Shown: piece by piece, positions 3,723 through 43,034 of the stretch
How positions within the stretch are numbered: position 1 is the first letter of the stretch
Layout of the letters: the number at the start of each line of letters is the position of its first letter
Source: Chlorobaculum parvum NCIB 8327
GTDB lineage: Bacteria > Bacteroidota > Chlorobiia > Chlorobiales > Chlorobiaceae
DNA length: 64,000 nt
Reading direction: 5' to 3'
Assembly (NCBI RefSeq): GCF_000020505.1
Contig: NC_011027.1
Location: 1,348,001 to 1,412,000 of the forward strand
Program-made: the position numbers and the translations under genes
Notes under the pieces: generated by a model
Told to the model about the DNA's origin: nothing
Databases searched by the model: none
What the model saw: the letters and a program-made list of their open reading frames with translations, nothing else

Positions 3723-5483
3723 ATGGCACAACTCACCCCACTGGACATCTCATTCATTGCGGGTTACCTGCTGTTAACCCTGCTGGTCGGCCTGTTCTTT
3801 TCAAGGCGGGCATCCGAAAACGTTGGCGAGTTCTTCCTTTCGGGACGCAAGCTACCGTGGTGGATCGCAGGTACCGGCATGGTTGCCACAACGTTCGCCG
3901 CCGACACACCGCTCGCCGTGGCGGGGTTTGTTGCCAAAAACGGCATCGCGGGGAACTGGGTGTGGTGGACGTTCGTGTCGGGTGGAATGCTTACGGTGTT
4001 CTTTTTCGCCCGGCTCTGGCGACGGGCAAACATTCTAACCGACCTCGAATTCATCGAGCTGCGCTACAGCGGCAAGGCTGCGAGCTTTCTGCGCGGCTTC
4101 AAGGCGATTTATTTCGGCCTCTTCATCAACGCGGTGATCATCGGGTGGGTGAACCTGGCCATGTTCAAAATCATCAAGATCATGATCCCCGGCCTAGACC
4201 CGCAGCTCACCATCGTGGGGCTCGTGATTTTCACGGCGATCTACTCCGGCATGTCTGGCCTGTGGGGCGTTTCAATCACCGATGCCGTGCAGTTCATCAT
4301 CGCGATGGGTGGTTGCATCGTCCTCGCAGTGCTGGCGGTCAACTCGCCGCAGGTTACGGCGGCTGGCGGCCTGAAAGAGGCCCTGCCTGGCTGGATGTTC
4401 GACTTCTTCCCGTCGTTCTCTTCGACCGTCAACACATCGGCGACCGGAGCCTACGCCCTGCCCTTCACCGCCTTTGCTGCTATGGCGTTCGTGCAGTGGT
4501 GGTCGTCGTGGTATCCGGGCGCGGAGCCGGGCGGCGGCGGCTACATCGCCCAGCGCATGATGAGCGCCAAGGACGAAAAAAACTCGCTGCTGGCGACGCT
4601 CTGGTTCACTATTGCGCACTACTGCGTACGCCCGTGGCCATGGATCGTCGTCGGCCTGGCGAGCCTCGTGATGTTCCCTCACCTGCCCGCCGGTCAGAAG
4701 GAGGACGGCTTCGTGTATGTCATGAACGCCGTGCTGCCCGCCGGACTGAAGGGCCTGCTCATCGCAGCCTTCATGGCGGCCTACATGTCAACGCTCTCGA
4801 CCCACCTGAACTGGGGCACGAGCTACCTCATCAACGACCTTTACAAGCGCTTCGTCAAGCCGGAGGCTGAACAGAACCACTACGTGCTGATGTCGCGGAT
4901 CGTCACGGCGATCACGGCGATCTTCGCCCTTTACATCACGTTCTACGTGCTGGAGACCATCACCGGCGCCTGGGAGTTCATCATCCAGTGCGGCGCGGGC
5001 ACAGGCTTCGTGCTGATCATGCGCTGGTTCTGGTGGCGGCTCAACGCCTGGTCGGAGATCACCTCGATGGTCGCGCCGATCGTTGCATACACCTGGATCA
5101 GCCAGTTCACCACGATCGTGTTCCCCGAGTCAATCTACATCATCGTGCTCTTCACGATTGCCGTAACCCTCGCCGTCACCTGGCTCACCAAACCAACTGA
5201 CAGATCAACGTTGCACGCCTTCTACCGCACCACGAGGGTTGGCGGAGCGCTGTGGAAACCGGTGGCCGACGAACTTCCTGACGTACAAGGCGACACCGGC
5301 TTCCCGGCCCTTTTTGCCAACTGGTTTTTCGGCATCGTGCTGGTTTACGCCACACTGTTCGGAACCGGCAAACTGATCTTTGGCGAACCGCTGGCTGCCG
5401 CGCTCTACTACGCCGCCGGAGCATTGGCTGGCGTAATGATCTACCGCGACCTGTCGAAGAGAAACTGGAAAACCTTCGATTAA
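3723..5483 (+). CDS. Sodium:solute symporter family (SSS) permease
   Basis: A 586-residue integral membrane protein with about 13-15 hydrophobic segments. The FLSGRKLPWWIAGTGMVATTFAADTPL stretch after the first helix is characteristic of SSS transporters, where the TTFAADTP part resembles the sodium/substrate region. The substrate is not evident; relatives carry sugars, nucleosides, amino acids or carboxylates. It sits between a carbohydrate-type kinase and maf, and its stop is 2 bases before the maf start, so symporter, maf and miaA probably form one transcript. Some residues after the last core helix (KPTDRSTLHAFY) form a soluble loop before two more helices. Confidence 0.88.
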   Translation: MAQLTPLDISFIAGYLLLTLLVGLFFSRRASENVGEFFLSGRKLPWWIAGTGMVATTFAADTPLAVAGFVAKNGIAGNWVWWTFVSGGMLTVFFFARLWRRANILTDLEFIELRYSGKAASFLRGFKAIYFGLFINAVIIGWVNLAMFKIIKIMIPGLDPQLTIVGLVIFTAIYSGMSGLWGVSITDAVQFIIAMGGCIVLAVLAVNSPQVTAAGGLKEALPGWMFDFFPSFSSTVNTSATGAYALPFTAFAAMAFVQWWSSWYPGAEPGGGGYIAQRMMSAKDEKNSLLATLWFTIAHYCVRPWPWIVVGLASLVMFPHLPAGQKEDGFVYVMNAVLPAGLKGLLIAAFMAAYMSTLSTHLNWGTSYLINDLYKRFVKPEAEQNHYVLMSRIVTAITAIFALYITFYVLETITGAWEFIIQCGAGTGFVLIMRWFWWRLNAWSEITSMVAPIVAYTWISQFTTIVFPESIYIIVLFTIAVTLAVTWLTKPTDRSTLHAFYRTTRVGGALWKPVADELPDVQGDTGFPALFANWFFGIVLVYATLFGTGKLIFGEPLAAALYYAAGALAGVMIYRDLSKRNWKTFD

Positions 5484-40816: not shown

Positions 40817-41845
40817 TTACGGAATGAGCACCGCCGCGCCTTTGGCTCTGCCGTGACGCAGGTCGAGCAACGCGCGATTGGCCTCTTCGAGCGGATAGCA
40901 CCGCACCTCGGGCTTCAGCCCCATCCGGGCTGCGATATCGAGAAATGCCGACACATCGGCTCGCGTAATGTTGGCCACGCTTTTGATCTCCTTTTCCATC
41001 CAGAGGTGGCGTTCGTAGGAAATGCCTGCGAGCAGATCGTTATCACGCGACTCCTTGCGGATAGCGTTAATGACGAGCCGTCCGCCGGGCCGCAGCCGTT
41101 CGAGTGCCGAGAGCACCGGCAACCAGGCGGGCGTCGTGTCGATAATGGAATCGCACGGTTCCGGCGGATCGGCGGTGATTTCCCCAACCCAGTCCGCGCC
41201 GAGCGAGAGGGCGAACTCACGATCCTTTTCGCTACGAGCGAAGACAAAAACCGGAGATTTGGGAAAGAGGTAACGAGAAAGTTTGAGCACCTGATGGCCC
41301 GAAGCGCCAAAGCCGGTCAGGCCGAGAATCTGGCCATCGCGGAGATTTGCGAGCATCAGCGAGCGATAGCCAATCGCACCACCACACAAAAGCGGCGCTG
41401 CTTCGGCATCGGTAAACACGTCGGGAACGGGATAGGTAAAATCCGCGAGCACAGTCATATACTCGGCATAGCCACCGTCAGCATCGCGCCCGGTCGCACG
41501 GAACTCCGGGCAGAGGTTTTCGTTGCCTGAAAGGCAGAGCGAACAGTGGCCGCACGAGGAGAAAATCCAAGCCACGCCGCGGCGGCTGCCGATCTCGATG
41601 CCTGCGACGCCATCGCCGCAAGCGACGACGCGCCCTACAACTTGGTGTCCGAGGATGACCGGAAAGCGTGGCGGTGACGTCCGCCCCTCGATCTCATCGA
41701 GCTCCGTATGACAAACGCCACACGCGCCCACCCGAAGCAGCAGTTCGCCCCGTTGCGGCTCGGGCACTGGCACCTCACGAAACACCAACGGCTCCGCTTC
41801 CACATGCAGATCGGTAATCCGCTCAAGCAACATCGCACGCATCAT
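40817..41845 (-). CDS. Zinc-dependent alcohol dehydrogenase family protein
   Basis: 342 residues of the MDR superfamily. The catalytic zinc ligand pattern GVCHTELD and GHQVVG with the structural zinc cluster CGHCSLCLSGNENLC (four Cys) are present, and the NAD(P) site LGLTGFGASGHQ has the variant GxxxSG. The enzyme is therefore a typical medium-chain zinc-dependent ADH; the substrate is unknown. It is convergent with the preceding gene without overlap. Confidence 0.92.
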   Translation of the reverse strand: MMRAMLLERITDLHVEAEPLVFREVPVPEPQRGELLLRVGACGVCHTELDEIEGRTSPPRFPVILGHQVVGRVVACGDGVAGIEIGSRRGVAWIFSSCGHCSLCLSGNENLCPEFRATGRDADGGYAEYMTVLADFTYPVPDVFTDAEAAPLLCGGAIGYRSLMLANLRDGQILGLTGFGASGHQVLKLSRYLFPKSPVFVFARSEKDREFALSLGADWVGEITADPPEPCDSIIDTTPAWLPVLSALERLRPGGRLVINAIRKESRDNDLLAGISYERHLWMEKEIKSVANITRADVSAFLDIAARMGLKPEVRCYPLEEANRALLDLRHGRAKGAAVLIP

Positions 41846-42013: not shown

Positions 42014-42382
42014 TCAGTGGCAGCCATGCCCTTCGCAGGCTTTTTGCGGGCCGACTTTCTGCAACAAGCCGTTGCTGAAGCGGTCAATGGCCTCGGCGAG
42101 GGTTGGGGCCTTCGCAGCCATGTAGATGTCGATTCCGAGGCTTTGCAGCCTTGCCGCCGCGCGTGCTCCGATGCCATTAACAATGACGGCCCCCGCACCT
42201 ACAGTTGCGAACGCATCGGCAGGTGTGCACTGGCCGTGGTCGTGGTGCATGTTCGCATTCTCGATAATCTCGACTGCTCCGGTTCCGGTCTCCACAATCC
42301 CGTAAAACGGGGCGCTGCCGAAATGTTCGCACACTTTTGAGCCGAGCCCGTTGTTCTCGTCAAGCGGAATGATGATTTTCAT
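42014..42382 (-). CDS. NifX/NifB-type dinitrogenase iron-molybdenum cofactor-binding-like protein
   Basis: 122 residues of the DiNase Fe-Mo cofactor-binding fold: IPLDENNGLGSKVCEHFGSAPFYGIVE, ANMHHDHGQCTPADAF and GIGARAAARLQSLGIDIYMAAKAPTLAEAID. His/Cys residues near HHDHGQC, plus the end (CEGHGCH), could bind metal. Anaerobes often pair such proteins with DUF134 regulators. Start overlaps the DUF134 gene stop (ATGA); it ends after a repeat and a terminator. Confidence 0.88.
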   Translation of the reverse strand: MKIIIPLDENNGLGSKVCEHFGSAPFYGIVETGTGAVEIIENANMHHDHGQCTPADAFATVGAGAVIVNGIGARAAARLQSLGIDIYMAAKAPTLAEAIDRFSNGLLQKVGPQKACEGHGCH

Positions 42383-42678
42383 GCTTCACCTCCTGCTTCA
42401 CGATTGCGACGCATCCGGCCCTGACCGTTGCCCTTGCCTTGACCCTTGCCCTGTCCACGCCCTTCTCCGTGACCTTCATGTTGCTGCAAACCGGTACGGA
42501 ATCCGCGGCAACGTCCGCCGCCCCGGCGACCACCACCGAATCCGCCACCGGGCGACAGGCGATGGATATTCTCGTTTGAGCATGATGGGCATGCCTCTGG
42601 CCGTCCGGTTCCGAACGGCACCGACCAGCTATGGCCGCACGCGGCGCAACCGAACTTTCTCTCTTCATTTGAAACCAT
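42379..42678 (-). other. Possible internal start within the DUF134 fusion, zinc-ribbon product
   Basis: In-frame ATG at 42678 preceded by AAAAGGAGG with a 7-base spacer, the best ribosome site in this neighbourhood. Translation from here would give a 99-residue protein with CxxC-x(n)-CxxC ribbon and Gly-rich tail. This looks like two genes fused by loss of a stop codon but keeping the second's initiation signal. Confidence 0.55.
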
Positions 42679-42960
42679 GATGTTTCCTCCTTTTACGTTT
42701 AACCGTCTGCCCAGCACGAGCATCTGCCCGAGTTTCTGCCTGGCTGAAGCCAGAATGTTGCCGAAGGTCTGGCGCGACACCTGCATCCGACGGGCAGCTT
42801 CCTCCTGATACAACCCCTCCACATCGGCCAACCGGATTGCCTCGAACTCGTCGAAGGTCATCTCCAGCGGCTCTGCATCGGAGTGCTCGGCAGCAAACGG
42901 CCCGAACGCCCGGTGCTCCGGATCTTCGGTGATAGCTCTGCATTTCATTGGTCTGGGCAT
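42379..42960 (-). CDS. DUF134 helix-turn-helix protein fused to zinc-ribbon/Gly-rich tail
   Basis: 193 residues from ATG 42960. Residues 1 to about 90 (MPRPMKCRAI, MTFDEFEAIRLADVEGLYQEEAARRMQVSRQTFGNIL) form the DUF134 domain with a helix-turn-helix, ending at LNVKGGN. The second part, from MVSNEERKFGCAACGHSW, is a two-CxxC zinc ribbon (CAAC, CPSC) with a Gly/Arg/Gln-rich tail. The ATG at 42678 has a perfect AAGGAGG 7 bases upstream, suggesting an internal start for a separate ~99-residue product. A palindrome sits 16 bp upstream of the start. The gene is coupled to the NifX-like gene. Confidence 0.88.
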   Translation of the reverse strand: MPRPMKCRAITEDPEHRAFGPFAAEHSDAEPLEMTFDEFEAIRLADVEGLYQEEAARRMQVSRQTFGNILASARQKLGQMLVLGRRLNVKGGNIMVSNEERKFGCAACGHSWSVPFGTGRPEACPSCSNENIHRLSPGGGFGGGRRGGGRCRGFRTGLQQHEGHGEGRGQGKGQGKGNGQGRMRRNREAGGEA

Positions 42961-42976: not shown

Positions 42977-42996
42977 TTATTAGCATATGCCAATAA
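42977..42996. promoter_or_regulatory. 20-bp palindrome upstream of DUF134, candidate operator
   Basis: TTATTAGCATATGCCAATAA: arms TTATTAGCAT and ATGCCAATAA, complementary except one position. It starts 16 bp before the DUF134 start codon, so it fits self-regulation. Binding by the DUF134 protein is inference. Confidence 0.55.
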
Positions 42997-43004
42997 AATA
43001 TCAC

Positions 43005-43034
43005 AAAAAAAGCGGGATGTCAAGCGCATCCCGC
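43005..43034 (-). terminator. Terminator after the MsrB-MsrA gene
   Basis: Leftward: GCGGGATG, 7-base loop, CATCCCGC (43012-43019 with 43027-43034), followed by seven Us (A run 43005-43011). Confidence 0.85.

Follow-up and report, generated by a model that had tools for sequence, protein, structure and literature searches.

A DUF134–zinc-ribbon gene of Chlorobaculum parvum that very probably yields two proteins from one reading frame

A single open reading frame of Chlorobaculum parvum NCIB 8327 raises the question of whether one gene can supply both a regulator and, from an internal start, a small metal-ribbon protein. The gene lies in a stretch of 64,000 nucleotides (the window; positions 1348001-1412000 of a 2,289,249-bp single-contig genome), runs on the minus strand from an ATG at 42960 to a stop codon at 42379-42381, and translates into 193 residues. 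The initial annotation described it as a DUF134 regulator joined to a zinc-ribbon protein, with a strong ribosome site at the junction. The coding parts are as follows:

42379..42960, minus strand: long product, DUF134 HTH plus zinc ribbon, 193 aa plus stop (translation, Pfam, 25 collinear orthologues)
42679..42954, minus strand: DUF134 (PF02001) domain, a sigma-region-4-like HTH, residues 3-94 (Pfam, 73 bits; AlphaFold; Foldseek)
42556..42654, minus strand: zinc-ribbon-like domain, C105-x2-C108 ... C124-x2-C127 (Cys invariance, weak profile matches, AF2)
42379..42678, minus strand: short product, a free ribbon from the internal ATG (Met95), 99 aa plus stop, with a Gly/Arg-rich tail (predicted; start conservation, standalone homologues)

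The N-terminal part is a clear member of DUF134/UPF0251, scoring 73.3 bits against a Pfam gathering cut-off of 27 (75 bits in the genome search). The match spans profile positions 6-95 of 98, and the domain ends directly before Met95-Val-Ser-Asn. In the AlphaFold model the HTH helices (residues 36-83) reach pLDDT values of 80-91, and the best full-domain Foldseek fits are to sigma region 4, to which this HTH is related. MCM ribbons occupy the top Foldseek rows, matched over low-confidence spans and without meaning. A sequence search of solved structures returned ribbon or HTH fragments only. In the same monomer model, pLDDT falls below 50 exactly at residues 95-97, a linker between two confident domains. 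The Pfam DUF134 model omits the ribbon, the internal start and the operator considered here, and describes the family only as one of unknown function.

The C-terminal domain forms a beta ribbon at residues 100-135 (AF2 model), and its four cysteines are invariant across orthologues. It shares the CxxC-CxxC layout of the Zn_ribbon_8/FmdB-type and HypA zinc ribbons, which match all members weakly and under the curated cut-offs; the window protein scores 17.8-19 bits for Zn_ribbon_8 (PF09723) against a cut-off of 34.4 and thus falls outside that family. In contrast to these ribbons, the domain found here constitutes a family of its own, with the core FGTGRPxxCPxCxSxNIHR.

How the two domains came together bears directly on how the junction should be read. 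The gene had been interpreted as two formerly separate genes, recently joined through loss of a stop codon, a reading that draws on the position of the internal start at the domain boundary. DUF134 occurs in 72 of the 98 genomes of the class, with two copies in many of them, and the ribbon is in frame in both Chlorobiaceae DUF134 clades. Fusion in frame is also seen in two additional genera of the order, as well as in most of the distant homologues examined, from many phyla. A search with one genome per species recovered DUF134-ribbon proteins in Ignavibacteria, Planctomycetota, Spirochaetes, Aminicenantes, Acidobacteria, Omnitrophota and Elusimicrobia, and further in desulfobacterial groups, Nitrospira and archaeal MAGs. 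When homologues were compared for a stop codon at the boundary, none was found in the Chlorobiaceae orthologues, all of which carry the ribbon in frame, or in any other homologue read. Because the ribbon is in frame throughout Chlorobiaceae and in many phyla, the comparison indicates that the fusion is ancestral and that no stop was lost; the stop-loss origin is contradicted by the orthologues, the paralogue clade and the distant homologues alike, and is hardly credible. The genome also carries a second DUF134-ribbon paralogue (L001, G000:C1:1284536-1284820), a member of the separate clade, which has neither the internal Met nor the palindrome described below.

The junction itself contains a ribosome-binding site, located as initially annotated: AAGGAGG at 42692-42686, followed after 7 nt by the in-frame ATG (42678-42676) of an internal ORF of 99 codons. 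Two features define it:

42686..42692, minus strand: internal Shine-Dalgarno (SD) AAGGAGG, spaced 7 nt from the ATG of Met95 (sequence, SD energy)
42676..42702, minus strand: suppressed synonymous variation, codons 87-95, TTA AAC GTA AAA GGA GGA AAC ATC ATG (codon columns)

The predicted SD energy of the window gene is -12.2 at the internal site versus 0 at its own start. Across Chlorobiaceae, the internal site is predicted at -9.4 to -12.2 in 25/25 orthologues, against a median of -2.2 for the own start and of -10.7 for that of NifX; two orthologues (L036, L045) have good ribosome sites at their own start as well. A chance SD would be compatible with the window count alone, as GGAGG-N5-9-ATG occurs 15 times against 10 +/- 3 expected and the motif by itself is within chance. 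The site is significant because it is conserved, not because of a single motif, and conservation rules chance out.

This conservation is most evident in the choice of codons. In 25 Chlorobiaceae loci, the DNA preceding Met95 reads TTA-xxx-(G/A)TA-A(A/C)N-GGA-GGA-xxx-AT(C/T)-ATG, with one exception that has GGG-GGA and a GTG start instead of ATG. Leucine is encoded by TTA in 22/22 cases and each glycine by GGA in 22/23. Among same-residue pairs at codons 87-96, the share using the same codon is 0.68-1.0 versus 0.22-0.38 expected, codons 88 and 93 excepted; it is 1.0 versus 0.22 for TTA and 0.91 versus 0.27 for GGA. The glycine columns of the block rank 1st and 2nd of 29 in codon conservation, Leu87 1st of 6, Val96 and Val89 1st and 2nd of 5, and Ile94 1st of 5. 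As a positive control, codon 190, where the SD of the NifX-like gene lies inside the ORF, is among the next-highest glycine columns (0.74 for GGA190). As a negative control, the paralogue clade, which has IEGG and no Met, freely varies both glycine codons.

The association between start codon and SD recurs far outside the class. The 68 distant homologues divide into 45 in which the Gly-Gly pair is followed, 2-4 codons on, by an in-frame ATG and 23 in which it is not. GGAGG is present in 35/45 of the former, versus 13.5 expected from the codon usage of each locus (P 1.5e-11), and in 6/23 of the latter, versus 6.1 expected; the association of ATG with GGAGG gives a Fisher value of 6e-5, with sequences treated as independent in these tests. 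A tree-corrected test leans in the same direction without reaching significance and has little power, with only 4 independent pairs on supported branches, of which 2.6 agree and 0.1 disagree (median p 0.25). The internal SD is predicted to be stronger than the own-start SD in 38/39 distant homologues, and 10/45 of the ATG-bearing ones lack the GGAGG core. The median SD energy at the site is -13.4 with the ATG and still -10.0 without it, since Gly-Gly codons themselves look like an SD.

Such a block could also act in a gene that makes the full-length protein only, pausing ribosomes at the domain boundary or serving some other nucleic-acid purpose, and its placement exactly at the linker of the AlphaFold model would suit that role. 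This explanation is improbable, as it does not account for the enrichment of GGAGG only where an in-frame ATG follows, for the conservation of ATG or GTG, or for standalone ribbons that start at the same site; scans of the block found no Rfam family and no internal promoter. An in-frame start codon with an SD at functional spacing thus lies inside the ORF, and the site is more strongly conserved than the encoded residues require, both at synonymous positions and in the ATG-dependent GGAGG, as expected of a gene within a gene. On this comparative evidence the internal start is under selection. The second product of about 99 residues proposed in the initial annotation gains support from codon conservation, GGAGG enrichment and standalone ribbons, and the gene very probably yields two proteins, the full regulator and the ribbon tail alone.

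Natural deletions isolate the short form. A ribbon-only profile identifies short ribbon ORFs without an intact DUF134 part in five Chlorobiaceae. In three of them (L201, L203 and L204) DUF134 is gone, and a promoter and palindrome are followed by a ribosome site, an ATG and the ribbon gene, and then by nifX. The ribosome sites read AAAAGGAGAAAATAAG-ATG, TTAAAGGAGAAAAG-ATG or ACAGGAAGAAAAAGT-ATG, and the distance from operator core to ATG is 73-83 bp instead of 311. In the other two (L202 and L205) DUF134 is degraded, with TTAAC(A/C)(T/G)TAAAAGGAGG(G/A)AA(C/T)AT(T/C)ATG, the ribbon and nifX intact; L205 belongs to a draft MAG containing runs of N, and for that reason its frameshifts could be assembly errors. 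In a further locus (L086) nearly the whole gene is lost, and the operator, a perfect palindrome, is kept together with nifX. The promoter and operator remnants at the free ribbon genes imply that the DUF134 part was deleted, and by this sequence record the separate Chlorobiaceae ribbon genes arose from fused ones rather than the reverse. Since the ribbon is kept in loci without DUF134, it appears to serve as an independent protein, with its start at the Met95 homologue. What the three HTH-less loci show is a working start after the removal of DUF134, not directly its use inside the fused gene.

The expression of the gene is probably controlled at its own promoter, where a palindrome overlaps the -10 region:

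42977..42996, minus strand: predicted operator palindrome TTATTGGCATATGCTAATAA (window shuffles, uniqueness, conservation)
42995..43023, minus strand: promoter TTGACA-17-TATTTT, abutting the operator (scan)
43012..43034, minus strand: terminator hairpin of the upstream msrAB gene, whose 3' arm contains the -35 TTGACA (scan)

The 20-bp palindrome TTATTRGCATATGCYAATAA is expected 0 times in window shuffles and is the sole site in the genome. The same sequence or a close variant is found at each Chlorobiaceae orthologue, just past a TTGACA-17-TATNTT promoter. In the class, 25/98 genomes contain the pattern TTRGCATATGCYAA, mostly in a single copy that precedes the DUF134-ribbon gene, while its reversed control occurs in one. 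Among the distant homologues, 53/68 match the palindrome upstream to within 3 mismatches, 23 of them exactly (control-window means 8-9 mismatches), mostly 26-45 bp from the gene, and TTGAY precedes it in 39/53 of these loci, indicating promoter overlap there too. The exact site is unique in 7/7 distant genomes that have one, and it lies at the DUF134 gene wherever the gene position is known. A conserved palindrome over the gene's own promoter, co-occurring with the gene, is the arrangement expected of autoregulation, with binding by DUF134 predicted. In the three HTH-less ribbon loci (L201, L203, L204) the left arm of the palindrome has decayed, which fits a loss of the protein that would bind it, L086 being an exception. 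The paralogue clade was considered as a co-owner of the operator and discarded, no palindrome being found upstream in the 34 loci scanned.

Several variations surround this core arrangement. Four Chlorobiaceae genomes have an exact TTRGCATATGCYAA away from any DUF134 gene (L085 4770, L088 4625, L087 4680, L089 3829), next to a lipoprotein/MFS pair and a glycosyltransferase in L085, L087 and L088 and with sqr nearby in L089. A wider regulon was rejected, as these stray sites share no theme and three are without outer arms. Archaeal and some desulfobacterial homologues (L155, L156, L154, L159) have other palindromes at the operator position, TTATGAATATATATTCATAA and TTGCGAGTATATACTCATAA, which suggests that operator specificity may have changed along with the HTH. 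In L114, L123, L126, L132, L135 and L137 the operator variant TTATGAGCATATGCTTATAA lies between -35 and -10 rather than past -10. The overlap of the msrAB terminator with the DUF134 -35 element recurs in Chlorobaculum orthologues.

The gene forms a unit with its downstream neighbour, as had been proposed from the overlap of the two and is borne out by Pfam assignment and by recurrent adjacency in orthologues and distant loci:

42014..42382, minus strand: Nitro_FeMo-Co (NifX-like) protein, with its SD GGAGGT (42393-42388) within the end of the ribbon coding region (Pfam PF02579, SD energies)

The DUF134-ribbon stop and the NifX-like ATG overlap by 4 nt (ATGA). The downstream protein belongs to Nitro_FeMo-Co (PF02579), at 74.2 bits against a Pfam cut-off of 26.3, the family of NifX and of the MrpORP/orange proteins. 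Compared with the NifX and MrpORP equivalogs themselves it matches weakly, with 19.5 bits for NifX (TIGR02663; NCBIfam cut-off 112) and 30 of 450 bits for MrpORP, and therefore no nitrogenase role is implied. A Nitro_FeMo-Co gene lies directly downstream in Chlorobiaceae orthologues; 38/68 distant loci also have one, usually as the next gene downstream, so that the partnership of this family with DUF134 extends across many phyla. In 21/68 distant loci the neighbours of DUF134 include MinD/Mrp-like ATPases that carry ferredoxin inserts. Judged from these neighbours, the label of Fe-S or metal regulator given in the initial annotation is plausible. In Desulfobacterota, standalone ribbon ORFs (L229, L230, L233) are each followed immediately by a CDF cation-efflux gene whose product carries a Nitro_FeMo-Co domain at its C-terminus. 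A zinc alcohol-dehydrogenase-like gene adjoins the locus, at 40817-41845 in the window and likewise in four distant loci (among them L129, at 3746-4792).

The preferred reading, to which we give a probability of about 0.8, is that one gene encodes two proteins, a self-regulating local regulator and a free ribbon that partners the co-transcribed Nitro_FeMo-Co protein. The promoter overlapped by the palindrome would drive an operon of the DUF134-ribbon and Nitro_FeMo-Co genes. Translation from the first ATG, which has a weak ribosome site in Chlorobiaceae, would give the long HTH-ribbon regulator, which is predicted to bind the palindrome as a dimer and most likely to repress its own promoter. 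The strong internal site, AAGGAGG-N7-ATG, would give the ribbon alone in larger amount, and the Nitro_FeMo-Co protein would be made alongside it by translational coupling. The regulator's own ribbon would report the state of a presumptive metal or cluster to the promoter.

The role of the free ribbon is the most tentative part of this reading. We infer, at somewhat less than even odds, that it binds a metal or cluster and acts as partner to the Nitro_FeMo-Co protein; the two would then handle the metal or cluster together, under the control of the long form. This view is favoured by the Nitro_FeMo-Co and MinD/Mrp-like neighbours and by the standalone ribbons of Desulfobacterota. The main rival, which seems rather unlikely, is that the free ribbon modulates its own regulator, pairing with the long form or competing for its effector and thereby relieving or tuning repression. 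Such a modulator would have a parallel in the rpn genes, which share this layout and in which a separately translated C-terminal domain, RpnS, blocks the long form, RpnL (PMC10327210); the internal ribosome site, stronger than the gene's own, would also lead to an excess of the short form. Against a modulator, the ribbon is retained with nifX in three lineages without the HTH, which argues for a function independent of the long form and supports the partner role, and the monomer model of the ribbon shows no dimer interface.

If the partner reading is extended to the distant homologues, there is about an even chance that these genes represent an ancient, widespread, self-regulating class in which one ORF provides a regulator and, by way of a conserved internal start, a free metal ribbon that serves the co-transcribed Nitro_FeMo-Co protein and sets the activity of the regulator, with a single palindrome per genome. 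In the literature searched, mostly without subscription journals, no report of DUF134 function and no bacterial regulatory use of the operator palindrome was found; DUF134/UPF0251 is named there only in lists or in passing. For this widespread domain of unknown function the analysis predicts an operator, a target, namely the operon that it forms with Nitro_FeMo-Co genes, and a second product, and an uncharacterised regulator family becomes experimentally tractable. Its in-frame internal start is broadly conserved, and in some lineages natural deletions have left the short form by itself. Annotation pipelines give one product per gene, and the free ribbon would therefore be missed in all these genomes.

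Internal in-frame starts are already known from the Rpn proteins (PMC10327210) and from Cas8b/Cas11b (PMC11899642). The DUF134-ribbon gene resembles RpnL/RpnS and Cas8b/Cas11b in that one ORF has an in-frame internal start from which the C-terminal domain can be translated alone, an excess of the short form being predicted here. Unlike those systems, it belongs to a transcription-factor family with its own operator, its putative short form is a metal ribbon, and its internal SD is conserved over many phyla.
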